A DNA stretch of 64,000 nt from the NCBI RefSeq assembly GCF_025363195.1, contig NZ_JANYEK010000079.1:31999-95998 (forward strand), in the 5' to 3' direction. Source of the DNA: Sphingomonas sp. GTDB taxonomy: Bacteria; Pseudomonadota; Alphaproteobacteria; Sphingomonadales; Sphingomonadaceae. This document shows, piece after piece, positions 9,455 to 35,943 of the stretch. The position numbers and the translations under genes are program-made. The notes below the pieces were generated by a model, which searched no databases, was not told the DNA's origin, and saw nothing but the letters and a program-made list of their open reading frames with translations. How positions within the stretch are numbered: position 1 is the first letter of the stretch; each line of letters begins with the position of its first letter.

Positions 9455-10309
9455 GTGCCGCATTTCATCGTCGTTTTATCCTGCCCGGATCGTCCCGGAG
9501 TGGTCGCCGCGGTCTCGGCGCATATCTTCGACTGCGGCGGAAATATCCTCGAATCCAGCCAGTATAACGACCCCGATAGCGACCGCTTCTTCCTGCGCAC
9601 GGCGTTCGTGCTGGCCGACGATGCGCGGCGGCATGCGCTGGAGGCGGGGTTTGACGATCTCGCCGCGCGCTACAGGATGCAAATCTCGCTGCGCGCCTGC
9701 GGCACGCGGCAACGGGTCCTGATCCTGGTGTCCAAGTTCGACCATTGCCTGGTCGACCTGCTTTACCGCCAGCGGATCGGCGAGTTGGATATGGAGGTGG
9801 TCGGCATCGTCTCGAACCATCCGTCGGCCGCGCTGGGCCAGCCCGATTTCGGCACGATCCCGTTCCATCACCTGCCCGTCACCACCGCGACCAAGGCGGC
9901 GCAGGAGGCGCGCATCCTTGCGTTGGTGGACGAGAGTGGTGCCGATCTGGTCGTCCTGGCGCGCTATATGCAGATCCTGTCGGACGATCTTGCCGCCGCG
10001 CTGTCGGGGCGGTGCATCAACATCCATCACAGCTTCCTGCCCGGTTTCAAGGGCGCCAAGCCATATCATCAGGCACATGCCCGCGGCGTCAAAGTGATCG
10101 GCGCGACGGCGCATTACGTCACCGCGGATCTCGACGAGGGGCCGATCATCGAACAGGATGTCGAACGAATCAGCCATGCCGATACGGCGGAAGATCTGGT
10201 GCGCAAGGGCCGGGACATCGAGCGCCGGGTGCTGTCGCGCGCGGTTGGTCTGCATCTGGAAGGGCGCGTGCTGCGCAACGGCGCCCGCACGATCGTCTTC
10301 AGGGACTGA
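9455..10309 (+). CDS. purU: Formyltetrahydrofolate deformylase
   Basis: 284 aa from GTG 9455, with AGGAGG-like sequence about 11 nt upstream. It hydrolyses 10-formyl-THF to formate and THF. The N-terminal ACT-like domain begins [19 protein letters not shown]. The C-terminal formyltransferase fold carries the catalytic Asn-His-Asp set in [19 protein letters not shown] and [14 protein letters not shown]. In many sarcosine/betaine operons PurU regenerates free THF after sarcosine oxidase has loaded it with C1 units. Its position directly behind soxBDAG and the transporter supports that role here rather than purine supply. Confidence 0.95.
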
Positions 10310-10314
10310 CCGCG

Positions 10315-11454
10315 ATGAGCCTGCTGATCCTAGCCGCCGCGACGACGATCGCGATCGATTATCGCGATGGGGCAAGCTGGCTGTGTCGACCGGGTCGGCA
10401 GGATATTTGCAGCGGCGACATCGCGAGCACGATCGTCTCGTCCGAGGGCGCGATGCGCAGCGCGGCTGTACCCAAGGCCGCCGCGCGCGACGTTGATTGT
10501 TTCTACGTGTATCCGACCGTTTCCCTCGACCCCGGCGATAATAGCGACCTGCATCCCGACGCGCAGGAACGGGACATGACGCAGGCGCAGCTCGCGCCGT
10601 TTCGCGGAGTGTGTCGCACCTTCGCGCCAATCTATCGGCAGGTCACGCTGACGGCGCTGCGCAAAGCGCTGGGTGGCAAGCCGGCTGCAGGGGATTTCGC
10701 TCTGGCGTATGCCGATGTGCGCAGCGCGTGGCGGGATTACATCGCCCATGACAATGGTGGCCGGCCATTCGTCCTGATCGGCCATAGCCAGGGCTCGGCG
10801 ATGCTGCAGCGGCTCGTCGTGGACGAGATCGACGGCAAGCCGATCCAGCGCAGGATGCTCTCGGCGATCCTGCCCGGGCGCAGCATAGCCGTGCCGCGCG
10901 GCAAAGATGTCGGCGGCGATTTCAAGGCCGTGCCGCTGTGCCGCTCGGCGACACAGACGGGCTGTGTCGTGACCTGGGCCAGCTATCGCGACACGGCGAC
11001 GCTACCGGCCAAGGCGCTGTTCGGGCGGGTGGCCGGCCCGGATATGGTTGCCGGCTGCACCAATCCCGCGCGACTTGCAGGCGGCCCCGCGCCGCTCGAT
11101 CCCGTGCTCGGGTCACCGTGGTGGGTGGGTGGCATCGCGCAATATGTGCAGCCCAAGGCAGGCTGGTCGGTGGCGGGGAAAGCCGTGCCGACCCGGTTCG
11201 TGAAGATGCCGGGCCTCCTCACCGGTGAATGCGTCGCGCGGGACGGGGCAAGTTTCCTTGCGGTCCATTTCGTGCCCGGCGATGCTCAGCCGCTGGCCGA
11301 TACGGTCGCGGGCACCGCGGCGATCGGCGACCTGGCCTATCCGGATTGGGGTTTCCACGTCGTCGATATCGCGATCGTCCAGGGCGATCTGATCCGCCTG
11401 GTCGCGCACCAGCGCGTTGCCTATCGGGCGCGGAACCCGAAAACTTGGCGGTAG
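10315..11454 (+). CDS. DUF3089 family alpha/beta-hydrolase-like secreted protein
   Basis: 379 aa from ATG 10315; the track ORF from 9745 is a frame extension through purU. The N-terminus MSLLILAAATTIAID is a short hydrophobic leader. The family hallmark VDCFYVYPTVSLDPGDNSD is present, and a nucleophile elbow GHSQGSAM fits an alpha/beta hydrolase. DUF3089 proteins are lipase/esterase-like with no well-defined substrate. It lies 5 bp after purU, so it is probably co-transcribed, and it ends at a bidirectional hairpin shared with the convergent TonB receptor gene. One possibility is release of the operon's substrate from an ester. Confidence 0.85.
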   Translation: MSLLILAAATTIAIDYRDGASWLCRPGRQDICSGDIASTIVSSEGAMRSAAVPKAAARDVDCFYVYPTVSLDPGDNSDLHPDAQERDMTQAQLAPFRGVCRTFAPIYRQVTLTALRKALGGKPAAGDFALAYADVRSAWRDYIAHDNGGRPFVLIGHSQGSAMLQRLVVDEIDGKPIQRRMLSAILPGRSIAVPRGKDVGGDFKAVPLCRSATQTGCVVTWASYRDTATLPAKALFGRVAGPDMVAGCTNPARLAGGPAPLDPVLGSPWWVGGIAQYVQPKAGWSVAGKAVPTRFVKMPGLLTGECVARDGASFLAVHFVPGDAQPLADTVAGTAAIGDLAYPDWGFHVVDIAIVQGDLIRLVAHQRVAYRARNPKTWR

Positions 11455-28325: not shown

Positions 28326-28967
28326 CTACCAGCGCAGCGCGCGCGGCCCGATCAATGCGCCGATCATCGTCGTCACTGCGATGCCGCAGGAATACCATAT
28401 CAGGACGAATGTCGCCGAAACCTCGGTGCAGGCCAGCGCATAGATCGCCGCCGCCGCCGTGCCCGCGACCAGCCCCGCCGTCATGCCGGCGCGGCGCAGG
28501 TGAACCGGGGCCTGCCGTCGGACCGCCCACAGCAGACCAGCGAGGATCGGCAGCGACAGCACGGCGATCCGCGCCGGGCATTGCCGCCAGCTGCCGCCGA
28601 ACACCAGTTCCGGCAAGCTGGTCGATGATGCCAGCGCGATCTGCGCGATCGCGAGGATGCCGAGCAGCACCATCGGCACCGCGACCAGCCGTGCGATCCG
28701 TTGCTTGCCGCGATCCGGCCGGGCCAGTTGGTCGGCCACGACGAAAGCCGGAACGCCGATCGCCGCGACGAAGGCGAGCTTCATCAATAGTGGCAACAGG
28801 TGATCGATCTGGCCGAGACCGGGCTGCACGCCGAATACGGCCAACAGGGCACCCACGGTCACGATCCCGCCGATCACGATACCGCTGGCAAGATCCTTGC
28901 GGGTCTTGTGCTGCACCATCTGCCGACTGTCGGCGGCAAGGCTGTTGATGAGGTCGGTGGTGTTCAT
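28326..28967 (-). CDS. nrsF: NrsF-type (DUF1109) membrane anti-sigma factor
   Basis: 213 aa from ATG 28967 (MNTTDLINSLAADSRQM). The track start 29039 (MTDPSSKHDQ) is possible for read-through from the sigma gene. The shorter start fits the family N-terminus and the promoter I see inside the region 29020-29045. Six hydrophobic segments follow (LASGIVIGGIVTVGALLAVF ...). Two cysteines, in GSWRQCPARIA and YALACTEVS, match the pair thought to sense stress in Caulobacter NrsF. It should hold the ECF sigma at the inner membrane until metal or thiol stress releases it. Confidence 0.88.
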   Translation of the reverse strand: MNTTDLINSLAADSRQMVQHKTRKDLASGIVIGGIVTVGALLAVFGVQPGLGQIDHLLPLLMKLAFVAAIGVPAFVVADQLARPDRGKQRIARLVAVPMVLLGILAIAQIALASSTSLPELVFGGSWRQCPARIAVLSLPILAGLLWAVRRQAPVHLRRAGMTAGLVAGTAAAAIYALACTEVSATFVLIWYSCGIAVTTMIGALIGPRALRW

Positions 28968-29019: not shown

Positions 29020-29045
29020 TTCGATGACGGATCGGTCATGGTTAC
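29020..29045 (-). promoter_or_regulatory. SigF-type promoter GTAACC-N16-CGAA for nrsF
   Basis: On the minus strand GTAACC (29045-29040) is followed after exactly 16 nt by CGAA (29023-29020). The -35 element overlaps the stop codon of the sigma gene. A transcript would begin near 29013 and give a leader of about 45 nt to the MNTTDL start of nrsF, so the anti-sigma would have its own sigma-dependent feedback promoter. Confidence 0.75.
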
Positions 29046-29632
29046 ACTTCCGCCTGATCGTCATGTTGTACGGATGCCGCAAGTCGGCCGAGACCGCGAT
29101 GGATATTTACTTTGACGAGCGACATGCTCTGGCCCGTCATCTGCGCCGCTTCCTCGATCGTGAAACCTTCGAGCTTGACCAGGCGGATGACCGTGGCCTG
29201 CGCCGGTTTCAAATGCGACAGCAATTCGTCCAGCACGATCGCGCTGGTCACCGCCGCGCCGTGATCCTCGACCCCGGCGATATTGTCATCCAACTCGTCG
29301 GTCAGTTCGCGGCTCATGCTGCGCAGCCGGTCGATCCATTTGTAGCGCGCGATCGCCGCGAGCCACGGTCGGAACGGGCGGTCGACCGAATAGGTATGCC
29401 GCTTGGTATGCACCGCAATCAGCGCCTCCTGCGCGGCATCCTCTACGGCGGCCGGCGGCAGGCGGCGGGCGTAATAGCGCCGCAACCACACGGTGATCTC
29501 GGACAACAGGCGATGATAGGCACCGCCCCCTCCCACGCTGGGGCCGGCATTGGCGGCGGCCATCAACCGGCCCCAATCGTCAACCGCATCGTCGTCCGCA
29601 ACGGGGCTCGCCATGTGTGGCATCTGCGCCAT
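29042..29632 (-). CDS. sigF: ECF RNA polymerase sigma factor (SigF-like)
   Basis: 196 aa from ATG 29632, with GAAGGA-type ribosome sites just upstream; the 73-residue track extension is discarded. Sigma region 2 is visible as AVEDAAQEALIAVHTKRHTYSVDRPFRPWLAAIARYKWIDRLR and region 4 as LKPAQATVIRLVKLEGFTIEEAAQMTGQSMSLVKVNIHRGL. The 3' end meets the NrsF-type anti-sigma gene, which defines the SigF group of ECF factors, known in Caulobacter to respond to heavy metals. Its probable regulon promoters (GTAACC-N16-CGAA) occur four times in the next 6 kb. None was found in front of sigF itself. Confidence 0.9.
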   Translation of the reverse strand: MAQMPHMASPVADDDAVDDWGRLMAAANAGPSVGGGGAYHRLLSEITVWLRRYYARRLPPAAVEDAAQEALIAVHTKRHTYSVDRPFRPWLAAIARYKWIDRLRSMSRELTDELDDNIAGVEDHGAAVTSAIVLDELLSHLKPAQATVIRLVKLEGFTIEEAAQMTGQSMSLVKVNIHRGLGRLAASVQHDDQAEV

Positions 29633-29814
29633 CGTCCTTCTCCGTCCTGCGCGACGATCCTCATCACCGCTGCATCCTCTCTCGGTCCGGTATCGTCCAC
29701 ATACCATGTACCAGATGTGCATGTGTTCCATGCCTGCAGCGCAGGGTGCGCAGAATTCTGGAAATATAACAGCGCGTTGAGTTTTACGAACGACGGCGGT
29801 CGAAACGGGGGACC

Positions 29815-29840
29815 GTAACCGAAGACGATTTTTCAGCGAA
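29815..29840 (+). promoter_or_regulatory. SigF-type promoter GTAACC-N16-CGAA for the 43-aa membrane protein
   Basis: GTAACC at 29815-29820, then 16 nt, then CGAA at 29837-29840. The expected start of transcription is near 29847, about 38 nt before the ATG at 29885. The site reads away from sigF. Confidence 0.78.
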
Positions 29841-29884
29841 CGTCGGGTCATGGGCCATCACGCCCAGTGCAAAGGATCGTTTTG

Positions 29885-30016
29885 ATGACTGTCGACCAAA
29901 CCCCCGCCGCCAGCCCGTTCCACGCTATGTTGCCGTTGCTCGGCACGTCCTTCGCCTTCGTCGTGCTGATCGGCGTCGGTTTCATCCTCGGCGGGTTTGC
30001 GATCATGATGAGCTGA
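29885..30016 (+). CDS. Small membrane protein in the SigF-type regulon (43 aa)
   Basis: Not in the ORF track. ATG 29885 has AAGGATCG 7 nt upstream. The product begins MTVDQTPAASPFHAML and continues with one hydrophobic segment of about 25 residues (LLGTSFAFVVLIGVGFILGG), ending FAIMMS. It is predicted to be a single-span membrane protein; I do not recognise a family. A perfect SigF-type promoter lies 45 nt upstream, so it should be induced with the bufferin operons. A LysR gene follows 62 bp later. Possible roles: modulation of NrsF, a metal-stress membrane peptide, or a partner of BufD1. The codon pattern is GC-rich as expected for a coding sequence. Confidence 0.7.
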   Translation: MTVDQTPAASPFHAMLPLLGTSFAFVVLIGVGFILGGFAIMMS

Positions 30017-30078: not shown

Positions 30079-30966
30079 ATGGAGATGCATCAGGTCCGCT
30101 ATTTCCTGGCGATGGCGCGGAGCCTGAATTTCACGCGCGCGGCGGAGGAATGCAACGTCACGCAACCGTCGCTGACGCGGGCGATCCAGAAGCTGGAAGA
30201 GGAACTCGGCGGGCCGCTGTTCCGGCGCGAACGGTCCCGCACCCATCTTACCGATCTCGGCCGGTTGATGCTGCCGCATCTCGAACGCACCGTCGAGGCG
30301 GCGGAGGCGGCAAAGCAGATCGCGCGCGATGTCGGCAAGGCGCAGGTCGCCGCGCTGGCTCTGGGCGTCGCGTCGTCGATCGATTCCGCCGTGCTGGAGG
30401 CGGTGATCGCCGAGGTTGCCGCGGGTCTGCCTGGCTTCGAGCTGTCGGTGACCAGCGCATCGTCAGCCGAAATCATCGAAGGCGCGCTGAGCGGCACGCT
30501 CGATCTCGTGATCGTCGAACTGCCCGATGACGGGCCGGACCGGATGGAGGCGTGGCCGCTGTTCGACCAGCTCTACTACCTCGTTACCCGCGCGGATCAT
30601 CCGCTCGCCGCGCGCGCGACGGCGAAGCTGGCCGATGCACGCGACGAACCCTTTATCGACTGGGGCGGCGATGCGGCGGAACGGCTGCTCGCGGCGGCGG
30701 GATCGGTCGGCTTCACGCCCGCCATCCCGCACCGCGCCTCCGGCCCCGATCAGGTCTGTCGCCTGATCCTCGCCGGGCTGGGCAGCGCGCTGATGCCGCC
30801 GCCGCGCGGGGACGACGGGCGGTTGCGGGCGGTGCGGCTGGAGGACGTCTCGATCTCCCGCCACGTCGTGCTATCGGCGATCAGCGGACGGCGGCGGTCG
30901 ATCGCGGCGGAGGCCTTCGTCCGTGCATCGCGTGCGCGCGACTGGAAAGGCGCCTCAGTCGTCTGA
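30079..30966 (+). CDS. LysR family transcriptional regulator
   Basis: 295 aa from ATG 30079 (MEMHQVRYFLAMARSLNFT); a start 14 codons earlier in the track is not supported by the family. The N-terminal winged helix-turn-helix reads FTRAAEECNVTQPSLTRAIQKLEEELGGPLF. The C-terminal part is a LysR substrate-binding domain. Its 3' end overlaps a convergent peroxiredoxin-like gene by 12 bp. The effector is unknown. It may regulate that redox gene, but no LysR T-N11-A site has been identified by me. Confidence 0.92.
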   Translation: MEMHQVRYFLAMARSLNFTRAAEECNVTQPSLTRAIQKLEEELGGPLFRRERSRTHLTDLGRLMLPHLERTVEAAEAAKQIARDVGKAQVAALALGVASSIDSAVLEAVIAEVAAGLPGFELSVTSASSAEIIEGALSGTLDLVIVELPDDGPDRMEAWPLFDQLYYLVTRADHPLAARATAKLADARDEPFIDWGGDAAERLLAAAGSVGFTPAIPHRASGPDQVCRLILAGLGSALMPPPRGDDGRLRAVRLEDVSISRHVVLSAISGRRRSIAAEAFVRASRARDWKGASVV

Positions 30967-31593
30967 CGCGACCAGCGCGGCGATCACGTCGGCGGGATCG
31001 GCGCGTTCGCGGAAATCCGGGTCGGCATAAGCGTAAAGCACCACGCCGTTACGATCGATCAGGAAGGTCGCCGGCACCGCCATCAACCCCGCCTGCGATC
31101 CGTAAGCCAGACCAAGGTCGAGGCCGTAACCACGATAGCGATCGAGCATCGGCGCGCCGAGATGGAAGGCCAGCCCGAGATCGAGGGCGACGCCGTGATC
31201 CACGTCGCACAACATCGTCATCGGATCGACGAAGATCGTCGCCAGCGCCGCCGCCCGTCCGCCGACTTCTCCGGTAACGGCGGCAAAGGCGGCGCCCCTG
31301 GCTGCAAGTGCGGGCAGCATCGCCGCCCACGCTGCCAGCTCATGGCGGCAGAACGGACACCAGCCACCGCGATTGAAGCTCAAGACCAGCGGGCCGCCGG
31401 ACAGTAATGTACCGAGCGAGCGATAGCGGCCCTGTGCATCGGGCAAGGCGAAATCCGGGAACGTATCGCCCACGCGCGGCGCGTTGGCGCCCACACCGGC
31501 CCGACGCAGCCGATCGACCAGAATGTCGTAATGCGGCTGCCAATCGGGATTGCAGGTGGCGCGCAGCGCATCGGCGAGGCTGGTGTTGGTCAT
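30955..31593 (-). CDS. Peroxiredoxin-like (AhpC/TSA) protein
   Basis: 212 aa. The thioredoxin-like domain carries GGWCPFCRHELAAW, a CxxC with the position of a peroxidatic cysteine, and the substrate-site segment VPATFLIDRNGVV. No signal peptide, so cytosolic. The family (AhpC/TSA, DUF899-like neighbours) commonly appears with LysR regulators. It converges with the LysR gene with a 12-bp overlap. It may serve peroxide or thiol defence alongside the metal-stress genes, but no SigF-type promoter was found in front of it. Confidence 0.85.
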   Translation of the reverse strand: MTNTSLADALRATCNPDWQPHYDILVDRLRRAGVGANAPRVGDTFPDFALPDAQGRYRSLGTLLSGGPLVLSFNRGGWCPFCRHELAAWAAMLPALAARGAAFAAVTGEVGGRAAALATIFVDPMTMLCDVDHGVALDLGLAFHLGAPMLDRYRGYGLDLGLAYGSQAGLMAVPATFLIDRNGVVLYAYADPDFRERADPADVIAALVASDD

Positions 31594-31696
31594 GCCCCAG
31601 GATGGCGGGGAAGCGCGGCCGAGGGAAGCGGGCAGGGGGCATGGAGTCGATACCCGGCGCGTATGATCGGCCCAAGACTAGCGGCTATCGCTCGAA

Positions 31697-32434
31697 TCAG
31701 TCGATCGCGACGATCAGCCCGTCGCGCAACCAGGTGCCGAGGATCGCGCCGATCTCCGACGGATCGCTGTCGTGAACGTGCCGCGCGAGCGTGCAGGTCG
31801 CGGCGAAACTCGCGCCGGACAGGGTCGCGGTCAGCGCCGTCAGTTCGACCGGTTCGGTGGTGCGAAAGCTGGGCGACAGCCCGTCGCGCCATACCAACAG
31901 GCCTGCGCGTGGCATGATTTCGGGCGGCGGAGGCATGTCCCCTGTCGCCAGCGCGTTCCAGATCGCGACCGCATTGGTGCGCACGTCCCGTGCCGCGACG
32001 TGCGGGGCGAGGACGATCGTCGCCGTTTCCCAATCGACCTCGGCCAGTCTGGCGGGATCGATCGCGGGCGTATCGGCGACGGCGAAGGCTTGACGCAACG
32101 CCCGATCGAGCCACGCCAGCTCGACGACTTCCAGATCGTCGGCATGGCGCTCCGCAAACGCTTCGGCGAAGTCCGGGCCATACGCCGCCAGCGTCCAGCT
32201 GCTCGGCGGATGCTGGTCGATATAGGCGCCCGCCGCGGCCTCGAACGCCTCCTCGCCAAGCCACAAAGCGGTTTTCTCATAGGGGTCGCGCAGGCAATCA
32301 ATCAGCGTGGCGCGGTAGGCGTGGGCATAAACCGGCAGGCCGCGTCGGGAGGCCTCGGGTACATGCCGCGCCACCGCAACGTCGCCGCGCAGGATGTGGG
32401 CGCGAAAGTCGCGTTGCAGGTCGATCAGGCTCAC
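31697..32434 (-). CDS. bufC2: BufC-type partner protein (DUF2063), bufferin-2 locus
   Basis: 245 aa from GTG 32434, overlapping the bufB2 stop as GTGA; the long track ORF is a shadow of bufB2 joined to it. The N-terminus VSLIDLQRDFRAHILRGD and the following VYAHAYRATLIDCLRDPYEKTALWLGEEAF are typical of DUF2063 proteins, which bind RiPP precursors and pass them to the DUF692 oxidase. The C-terminal half is a less conserved substrate-specificity domain. It should present BufA2 to BufB2. Confidence 0.87.
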   Translation of the reverse strand: MSLIDLQRDFRAHILRGDVAVARHVPEASRRGLPVYAHAYRATLIDCLRDPYEKTALWLGEEAFEAAAGAYIDQHPPSSWTLAAYGPDFAEAFAERHADDLEVVELAWLDRALRQAFAVADTPAIDPARLAEVDWETATIVLAPHVAARDVRTNAVAIWNALATGDMPPPPEIMPRAGLLVWRDGLSPSFRTTEPVELTALTATLSGASFAATCTLARHVHDSDPSEIGAILGTWLRDGLIVAID

Positions 32435-33276
32435 GCCGCCGCCCTCAAATGGGGTGCGGCGATCGCGCGGGCCATGTCGAGTTCGCCGAGCAATACCTCC
32501 AGCGCAGGAATATCGTCGTCGCGTTCGATCATCGTCGCGACATCGCCGAGCCGTTCGACCGCCGCGCGATAGAGTGCCCAGACACCGTCCGGCACGGGAT
32601 GGTCGTGCGTGTCGATCAGCAAGCCGTCGCGCCCCTGGCTGTGCCCGGCGAGATGGACCTGCCGCACGCGATCGGCGGGAATGGCGTCGAGATATTGGAT
32701 CGCGTCGAAGTCGTGATTCTTCGCGCTGACGAACACGTTGTTGACGTCGAGCAGCAGATAGCAGCCGGTGCGGCGAGACATCTCGGCGATGAAATCCCAT
32801 TCGCCATACGCCGCGTCGGCGAACTCGACATAACTGGAGGGGTTTTCCAGCAGCATCGCCCGGCCCAGCATTTCCTGTGCGCGATCGATATTGTCGCACA
32901 CCAGATCCAGCGCCTCGCGCGTGTAGGGCAACGGCAGCAAATCGTGGCTGTTGAAGCCCTCAATTCCGGTCCAGCTCAGATGATCGGAAACCCATATCGG
33001 CTCGATCCGGTCGGCTAGCATCCGCAGGCGGCGTAGATAGTCCGGGTTGAGGCCGTCGGCCGAACCGATCGACATCGAAACGCCGTGCAGGGCGACGGGG
33101 TAATGCGCGCGCACGCGCGCCAGCACGTCGAGCGGGCGGCCGCCGTCGACCATGAAATTCTCGGAAATCACCTCGACGAAATCCACGTCCACATCGCCGT
33201 CCAGAAAGGCGGGATAATGTGGTGGGCGCATGCCGAGCCCGAAGGCGCGGGTCGGAGGCAGATCAGGGTAGGTCAT
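32431..33276 (-). CDS. bufB2: MNIO family (DUF692) RiPP-modifying oxidase, bufferin-2 locus
   Basis: 281 aa from ATG 33276. A TIM-barrel multinuclear non-haem iron oxidase: LHGVSMSIGS, VSDHLSW, LENPSSYV, LLLDVNNVFVSAKNH, VHLAGHSQG, IDTHDHPVPDGVWALY and IERDDDIPAL supply the conserved His/Asp/Glu iron ligands. Characterised BufB enzymes convert precursor cysteines to thio-oxazole-type heterocycles. It lies 62 bp after bufA2, separated by a strong hairpin, and is coupled to bufC2. Confidence 0.92.
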   Translation of the reverse strand: MTYPDLPPTRAFGLGMRPPHYPAFLDGDVDVDFVEVISENFMVDGGRPLDVLARVRAHYPVALHGVSMSIGSADGLNPDYLRRLRMLADRIEPIWVSDHLSWTGIEGFNSHDLLPLPYTREALDLVCDNIDRAQEMLGRAMLLENPSSYVEFADAAYGEWDFIAEMSRRTGCYLLLDVNNVFVSAKNHDFDAIQYLDAIPADRVRQVHLAGHSQGRDGLLIDTHDHPVPDGVWALYRAAVERLGDVATMIERDDDIPALEVLLGELDMARAIAAPHLRAAA

Positions 33277-33304
33277 CGCAACAGATCCTCGTCGCGGGAG
33301 GTAT

Positions 33305-33330
33305 CCCCGGATGCCGCGAAGCATCCGGGG
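33305..33330 (-). terminator. Perfect hairpin between bufA2 and bufB2 (attenuator/stabiliser)
   Basis: Stem CCCCGGATGC / GCATCCGGGG (10 bp, perfect) with loop CGCGAA, starting 8 bp after the bufA2 stop. There is no T-run, so it is more likely a partial terminator or a 3' mRNA-stabilising structure that lets the precursor be made in excess over its modifying enzymes. Confidence 0.65.
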
Positions 33331-33338
33331 CGTAGGTC

Positions 33339-33602
33339 TTACTTCTCGGTCAGCGTGCCGCCGGCCTTGGCGCAGGCCTTGGTCGACAGTGCCTTGAAGC
33401 CCTGGCCCTTGCACTCGTTCTGGCCCTTGCATTCATGGGTGCCGCTCTTGCAGTCGGACGTGCCCTTGCAGCTGTTGACGCCGTAGCAATGGACGACCGT
33501 GCCAGCCTTTGCGGCATTGGCGGGCGTTACGACGGCAGCACCGGCAACGGCGATGACAGCGGCGGCGGTGGCGAAGTTGATGGTTTTCGACAGGGTCGTC
33601 AT
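33339..33602 (-). CDS. bufA2: Bufferin-type RiPP precursor, 6-Cys class
   Basis: 87 aa from ATG 33602, with AGGAG upstream; the track start at 33710 crosses the promoter. The N-terminus is a signal peptide (MTTLSKTINFATAAAVIAV...VTPANA) with cleavage before AKAG. The mature ~55 residues carry six Cys in a repeating pattern: CYGVNSC, GTSDC, GTHEC, GQNEC and TKAC near the end. This matches the non-DUF2282 bufferin-2 class as I recall it. BufB-type oxidases modify central cysteines, giving a periplasmic copper-binding peptide. A perfect SigF-type promoter lies at 33651-33676. Confidence 0.87.
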   Translation of the reverse strand: MTTLSKTINFATAAAVIAVAGAAVVTPANAAKAGTVVHCYGVNSCKGTSDCKSGTHECKGQNECKGQGFKALSTKACAKAGGTLTEK

Positions 33603-33650: not shown

Positions 33651-33676
33651 TTCGCCTGCGCAATCGCCCCGGTTAC
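33651..33676 (-). promoter_or_regulatory. SigF-type promoter GTAACC-N16-CGAA for bufA2B2C2
   Basis: On the minus strand GTAACC (33676-33671), exactly 16 nt, then CGAA (33654-33651). The expected leader to bufA2 is about 42 nt. The site begins 31 bp after the glutaminase stop. Confidence 0.82.
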
Positions 33677-34693: not shown

Positions 34694-34799
34694 CCCCGTG
34701 TCATGACCGGCCTGATCGCCTCTCGGGTCATCGTGCGGCGGGCACTCCGATGTGGAGTTCCGGCGCTGGCGAGGCACATATTCGTTTTGGAGATTCAAT

Positions 34800-35066
34800 A
34801 TGACCACCCGTATTTCGGCCGCACTCGCGGCGGTCCTGGTTACCTCGCTCACCGCCGGTGCCGCGACCGCACAGGCCGCCAAGCCGATGGAAAAATGCTT
34901 CGGCGTATCCAAGGCGGGCAAGAACGATTGCAAGGCCGGCACCGGCACCAGCTGCGCGGGCACGTCCAGGATCGATTACCAGAAGAACGCCTGGAAGCTC
35001 GTTCCGGCTGGCACCTGCACCAAGATCAAGACCCCCAAAGGCGCCGGGTCGCTGACCGAGAGCTGA
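34800..35066 (+). CDS. bufA1: Bufferin-type RiPP precursor, DUF2282 (4-Cys class)
   Basis: 88 aa from ATG 34800, with TGGAG 8 nt upstream. The signal peptide [26 protein letters not shown] is followed by the mature peptide with four cysteines in the DUF2282 pattern: [14 protein letters not shown], then TSCAGTS, then [11 protein letters not shown]. This is the classic bufferin-1 precursor signature. The product is expected to be exported and to sequester copper in the periplasm after modification by BufB1/BufC1. First gene of a four-gene plus-strand operon under a SigF-type promoter. Confidence 0.93.
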
Positions 35067-35109
35067 TCGCGCGGACCCTCGTTCCAGAGGCATGAAGGGA
35101 GGTTGCGAC

Positions 35110-35943
35110 ATGAGCGTTACTGCAGGAATCGGTTTCAAGACCGCGCACCTTGCCGATGCGCTTCCGTGCCGAGCCCCCGGCCTCTGGTTCGAGGTCCATG
35201 CCGAGAATTATATGGTGGAGGGCGGTCCCCGGCTTGCCGCGCTCGTCGCGCTGGCGGACCGTCATCCCGTTTCGCTTCATGGTGTCGGCCTGTCGCTCGC
35301 CTCGGTCGCGCCACCGCCGCCCGACCATATCGTGCGGCTGCGCACCCTGGCCGATGGCATTTCCCCGACCGCGGTGTCCGACCATCTCGCGTGGCAGCGC
35401 TGGAACGGGGCGCATCATAGCGATTTCCTGCCTTTCCCCCGCACCCGTCAGGCGCTGTCGCATGCAGTGGACAATATCGACATCGTACAAGCGGCGCTCG
35501 GGCGCTCGATCATGGTCGAAAATCCCTCGCTTTATGTCGATCTGCCCGGTCATGACCTGAGCGAGGTCGATTTCCTCACCGAACTCGCCCGCCGCACTGG
35601 CTGCGGCCTGCTGCTCGACGTCAACAACGTGTTCGTCAGCGCCCATAATCTCGGTTTCAGCGCGGATGCCGTGATCGATGCCTTTCCGGCCGATCTGGTC
35701 GGCGAGATCCACCTTGCCGGGCACAGTCGCGATGCCGATCCGGATAGCCCGTTGCTGGTCGATTCGCATGCGTGTGCGATCGCCGATCCGGTCTGGGCCT
35801 TGTACGAACGGTTGATCGCCCGGATCGGCCCGCGCCCGACCCTGATCGAACGCGATGATGACATTCCCGATTTCGGCACCTTGCTCGCCGAGCGGGATCG
35901 CGCGCACGCCCTTCTCGCCGTGCGCGTGCCCGCTCATGTCTGA
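35110..35943 (+). CDS. bufB1: MNIO family (DUF692) RiPP-modifying oxidase, bufferin-1 locus
   Basis: 277 aa from ATG 35110, with GGGAGG upstream. Multinuclear non-haem iron oxidase barrel: WFEVHAENYM, LHGVGLSLAS, VSDHLAW, MVENPSLYVDL, GLLLDVNNVFVSAHN, IHLAGHS, VDSHACAIADPVWALY and LIERDDDIPD. It is clearly related to but distinct from bufB2, so the two operons are not a recent duplication. It is expected to oxidise cysteines in BufA1. It overlaps bufC1 by 8 bp. Confidence 0.93.
   Translation: MSVTAGIGFKTAHLADALPCRAPGLWFEVHAENYMVEGGPRLAALVALADRHPVSLHGVGLSLASVAPPPPDHIVRLRTLADGISPTAVSDHLAWQRWNGAHHSDFLPFPRTRQALSHAVDNIDIVQAALGRSIMVENPSLYVDLPGHDLSEVDFLTELARRTGCGLLLDVNNVFVSAHNLGFSADAVIDAFPADLVGEIHLAGHSRDADPDSPLLVDSHACAIADPVWALYERLIARIGPRPTLIERDDDIPDFGTLLAERDRAHALLAVRVPAHV

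Follow-up and report, generated by a model that had tools for sequence, protein, structure and literature searches.

A conserved one-span membrane miniprotein encoded divergently from sigF, a candidate addition to the SigF regulon of Sphingomonadaceae

Within the 64-kb stretch of Sphingomonas sp. DNA analysed here (in the following, the window), positions 29885–30016 of the + strand (ATG at 29885, TGA at 30016) hold an ORF for a protein of 43 aa, MTVDQTPAASPFHAMLPLLGTSFAFVVLIGVGFILGGFAIMMS, that was missed both by family libraries and by the ORF track. With a probability of roughly 0.85, we regard it as a genuine and conserved one-span inner-membrane miniprotein that is transcribed by SigF polymerase from a promoter at 29815, here probably together with a lysR gene, and that is part of the SigF oxidant/metal response. 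This identity is based on the ORF, its promoter and its gene context, together with the conservation of frame, start and promoter; we infer that the miniprotein is translated and depends on SigF.

The ORF is preceded by a ribosome binding site (AAAGGA, 29871–29876, +, 8 nt 5' of the ATG), and its G+C content at codon positions 1, 2 and 3 (0.53, 0.44 and 0.88) is distributed as in genuine genes of GC-rich genomes. AlphaFold, with an input of just six sequences, predicts one helix spanning residues 11–42 (mean pLDDT 77.6). The ribosome site and the single hydrophobic segment described in the earlier note are both borne out. The protein is devoid of Cys and has three Met besides the start. Its gene is divergent from sigF (29042–29632, −), which encodes an ECF16 sigma factor; as had been proposed, the ORF can thus be rejected as a leader of sigF, since it points in the wrong direction. 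Searches of Pfam, NCBIfam, PHROG and PDB returned no family above cut-off, in line with the first reading of the sequence, which had not brought any family to mind.

The putative SigF promoter at 29815–29840 (+) is a perfect copy of GTAACC-N16-CGAA, which is the sigma-F sequence of Caulobacter (PMC3511200) and closely resembles the ECF16 consensus that has been published for Brucella (PMC8315932). The perfect box had been seen correctly, with its distance slightly overstated: 44 nt rather than 45 nt separate CGAA from the ATG. With ten fixed bases, about 0.1 perfect matches per 64 kb would be expected; four were observed in the window, all within 5.7 kb (29.0–34.7 kb), and 13 in the entire 3.07-Mb genome. 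Apart from the miniprotein box, those in the window are located ahead of nrsF (29020, −), of a bufferin gene (33651, −) and of a second bufferin-like gene (34668, +). The box ahead of nrsF (29020–29045, −) straddles the sigF stop, with 52 nt between it and an internal nrsF start (28967), and seems to give the anti-sigma factor a feedback promoter of its own; SigF boxes ahead of nrsF also occur in L103, L015–L017 and L219. The second bufferin-like precursor (34752–35919, +) scores below the BufA2 cut-off and is directly followed by a bufB homologue (48 % identical). Elsewhere in the same genome, perfect boxes were found ahead of a b561 cytochrome/molybdopterin oxidoreductase pair and of a thioredoxin-like/CcdA-type pair (L164, i.e. 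G000:C159, and L163, i.e. G000:C137).

The reading frame, on whose conservation the earlier note had staked its proposal, recurs in four further genomes of Sphingomonadaceae, as homologous ORFs that are divergent from sigF. Searches with the single sequence found no copy beyond the gene itself among 60 relatives or 295 congeneric genomes (the weak matches that were inspected proved to be unrelated frames), and a tblastn search of plasmids gave no match. An order-wide search of 401 genomes yielded a weak match in only one, G487 (E=0.009); this is not significant on its E-value alone and was accepted because the 46-aa ORF lies immediately divergent from sigF. A profile of this pair led to a 47-aa ORF in L049, and a three-member profile to G851 (E=2.2e-13) and G724 (E=2.9e-5), all of them likewise divergent from sigF. 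The core family hence comprises five members of 43–47 aa (window, G724, G487, G851 and L049; the loci L049, G888 and G944 share contig coordinates, apparently represent one genome and were counted once), which have in common the divergent position, an A-x-x-P-x-x-G motif entering the single helix, MM near its end and a SigF-type box upstream. The G724 protein is 65 % identical to that of the window over residues 1–31. When profiles were built leaving one member out, every core member ranked first against about 1070 unrelated membrane segments, with a small margin for G487 (24.6 versus 21.5 bits), and dN was below dS in both testable pairs (0.088 versus 0.50 for the core of G851/L049; 0.30 versus 0.72 for window/G724).

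Two further ORFs, in G759 and G125, are similar, lie between a nitrilase and a DUF1223 gene within a SigF cluster and carry a perfect SigF box. Their profile scores (18.3 and 14.3 bits) compare with a background maximum of 24.7 bits, while a profile–profile comparison gave P=2e-6; resting mainly on promoter and locus, with suggestive sequence similarity, they are probable rather than proven family members that lead DUF1223 operons. Counting these, the exact consensus box is found in three of the seven members (window, G759 and G125), and the other four differ by one or two bases: each core homologue sits behind a GTAACN-N16-CGNA box, with CGGA in G724, G851 and L049 and a different sixth −35 base in G487, G851 and L049. 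The box lies 38–49 nt from the start in six of the seven members and about 102 nt away in G487. A blind scan for GTAACN-N16-CGNA followed within 140 nt by an ORF of 28–75 aa that has a ribosome site and a strongly hydrophobic segment, run over a set of sigF-selected loci, retrieved two secreted Met/His-rich peptides in addition to six family members; with ten control motifs, the same scan turned up no ORF of this kind, to be read with the fact that these loci were chosen for sigF and are hence enriched in true boxes. Taken together, genera other than that of the window have the same frame, start site and helix next to sigF, behind a promoter of SigF type, and this supports the original suggestion that the SigF/bufferin regulon has a real, unlisted member here.

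The family is sparsely distributed, with Sphingomonadaceae as its only hosts seen to date. Profile searches of 50 sigF-bearing genomes of other groups matched only in L049's own genome, and in 80 genomes from the genus, almost all of them carrying sigF, the sole convincing match was G125; in G148, the divergent sigF and lysR are kept with neither a miniprotein ORF nor a SigF box between them. As to the co-occurrence with sigF–nrsF that had been suggested as a check, the core members adjoin sigF, whereas most of the sigF-bearing genomes searched lack the miniprotein, which is therefore not an obligate SigF partner.

In the window, the miniprotein gene is followed after 62 nt by a lysR-type regulator (30079–30966, +; also near the miniprotein in G724), with no terminator-like site between the two, which are probably co-transcribed. 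Next come a redoxin of AhpC/TSA type (30955–31593, −), a constant neighbour of the cluster, and the bufferin operon bufA-bufB-bufC (31697–33599, −; SigF box at 33651–33676); on the other side, sigF is accompanied by nrsF (28326–28967, −; Pfam NrsF, 1.5e-58), whose product has both conserved Cys. The order in G724 (sigF and miniprotein divergent, then NDH-2, a type II NADH dehydrogenase, and lysR on the miniprotein strand and a convergent redoxin) is that of the window with NDH-2 added. In G487, the miniprotein is followed by the convergent redoxin and then by NDH-2, and in L049 and G851 by the convergent redoxin, NDH-2 being no more than about 4 kb away. The large SigF cluster of L219 (G759:C67) has about ten SigF boxes, MsrA, DUF1223, nitrilase and thioredoxin genes as well as a second nrsF-bufB-bufC set with no sigF of its own nearby. 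A gene for a multi-span, putatively DUF417/RclC-like membrane protein adjoins relatives of the window LysR in L127–L129 and is also present in the L219 cluster (10284–10769). Overall, the neighbours (redoxin, NDH-2, DUF1223 and methionine sulfoxide (MetSO) reductases) suggest a redox defence of the envelope no less than a response to metals.

A second control layer may be superimposed. The LysR-type palindrome ATRC-N7-GYAT lies ahead of the redoxin in the window (31650, within 31646–31668), L049, L213 and L215; four homologous loci have it in the interval that separates sigF from the miniprotein. At these two positions taken together, the sites are 4741 and 5825 in L049, 4889 and 6012 in L213, 4107 in L214, and 7586 and 8616 in L215. 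The window copy at the latter position (29726–29748, between sigF and the SigF promoter) is degenerate and weak, being the tenth best in the 64 kb. The palindrome is a likely operator of the cluster-encoded LysR, which may thus act on the miniprotein promoter too. It lies right next to the GTAAC box in L049, L213 and L215, where the promoter may owe some of its activity to LysR.

What the miniprotein may do is suggested by its C-terminus. The helix of all five core members terminates in a Met cluster (IMMS, MMLMM, AMTMMM, AMTMMG and AMAMMG) in which an MM pair close to the C-terminus is invariant, and six members have three to six Met in their last 31 residues; of 57 background membrane segments, 2 have three or more. 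Both here and in relatives, SigF boxes stand ahead of genes that would suit the repair of oxidised Met, namely the b561/molybdopterin oxidoreductase and thioredoxin-like/CcdA pairs of this genome and MsrA in G759, and an ECF16 factor of Brucella controls MsrPQ-type genes together with a Met-rich peptide encoded divergently from it (PMC8315932). According to the mechanism we favour, release of SigF by NrsF would lead to synthesis of the miniprotein and its insertion into the inner membrane, with the C-terminal Met cluster presumably at the outer face, where the methionines could serve as an oxidisable sink or as Cu(I) ligands; oxidised Met would be recycled by the periplasmic MetSO reductases of the regulon using quinol electrons, to which NDH-2 may contribute. 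The protein would accordingly work like the secreted Met-rich MrpX/BcrX peptides, driven by ECF16 from the same divergent position, albeit embedded in the membrane. The Met–Met helix end, the MetSO repair genes in the regulon and the position of BcrX are our reasons for preferring this mechanism, which is put forward tentatively. Several points count against it: G125 lacks the Met tail, the window copy has only its three additional Met, and the nearest MetSO reductase genes lie outside the miniprotein operon (the b561/molybdopterin oxidoreductase pair is on a different contig, with its own SigF box). The charge pattern does not settle the topology. A SigF-made miniprotein acting as membrane-embedded Met sink or Cu(I) ligand is nonetheless the best explanation as a whole, at somewhat less than even odds, even though there are just five core members, among them G487 with its narrow similarity margin and distant promoter. 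The more specific proposal of an unannotated SigF-induced family whose outer-end methionines form a rechargeable membrane sink for HOCl or copper, recycled by the quinol-driven MetSO reductases of the regulon, is speculative and, in all its parts, rather unlikely.

Other roles have to be weighed against this. The helix might dock on a redox enzyme of the regulon (NDH-2, the DUF1223 protein or the b561-type cytochrome) and stabilise or anchor it, as CydX, a small subunit, serves cytochrome bd; size, one-helix architecture and redox gene context are typical of such subunits, and the gene immediately precedes NDH-2 in G724 and DUF1223 in G759 and G125. Yet neither a family match nor a constant enzyme partner was found, as the window has no nearby NDH-2 and G487 has it only beyond the redoxin, on the far side, which makes such a function unlikely. 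Binding of the helix to the six-span NrsF within the membrane, so as to shut off or prolong SigF activity, had been put forward in the earlier note, and it would fit the location of every core member beside sigF behind a SigF-type promoter. We consider it doubtful, given that the perfect SigF box of nrsF itself would already provide negative feedback, that nrsF is not adjacent to sigF in the G724 region examined and that the great majority of the NrsF/SigF systems examined do without the miniprotein.

The short distance to lysR, on the same strand and with no intervening terminator, could also mean that translation of the ORF, and not its product, controls lysR; this is highly improbable, because the next gene in G487, L049 and G851 is the convergent redoxin and because the residues, not merely the frame, are conserved. 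A chance open frame, to which the failure of the single sequence to find another copy in the genus might have pointed, is scarcely credible in view of the conserved frame, start, helix and promoter beside sigF in other genera, dN below dS and the empty control scans. Assistance to BufD1 is the least likely of the roles proposed at the outset, which also comprised NrsF tuning and protection from metals, and was rejected, as none of the members found has bufD in its operon.

Among known systems, BcrX of Brucella and MrpX of Azospira suillum come closest, being small, Met-enriched, encoded divergently from an ECF16 sigma gene behind a SigF-type promoter and joined in the regulon by MetSO repair (PMC8315932). 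By description, these are Met-rich repeat peptides (periplasmic in the case of MrpX) in an operon with MetSO reductase genes (PMC8315932), whereas the miniprotein, at 43–47 aa, ends with its helix (residue 42 of 43 in the window) and has far fewer Met; neither a secreted Met-rich mature domain nor an operon with msrP/msrQ-type genes is present, and membership in the MrpX family was rejected for want of such a domain. Small secreted Met/Ser/His-rich peptides resembling the MrpX type do follow SigF-like boxes at sigF loci of Acetobacteraceae (L050, L057, L082–L085, L090 and L092). The Caulobacter SigF–NrsF regulon shares the GTAACC-N16-CGAA promoter, an NrsF with two Cys, buf operons and a YedY-type oxidoreductase, but its eight genes as given in PMC3511200 include no such miniprotein and no linkage to redoxin, NDH-2 or lysR. 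BufA bufferin precursors are likewise small, SigF-driven and located in the same cluster; they are exported peptides with conserved Cys, in contrast to the miniprotein, which has no mature part after the helix and, lacking Cys and an NCBIfam (BufA) match, was rejected as a bufferin.

Membership of the miniprotein in the regulon is, as far as sequence comparison can tell, well supported, and its recurrence beside sigF with a SigF-type promoter of its own implies that the sphingomonad SigF regulon as described is incomplete. The DNA just downstream of ECF promoters can evidently reveal real small membrane proteins when inspected. In this case, copper defence by bufferins, the chemistry of redoxin and NDH-2 and a LysR regulator are tied together in one divergent control region, which offers a compact model of envelope stress handling; the miniprotein probably takes part in protecting the cell envelope from oxidants or copper.
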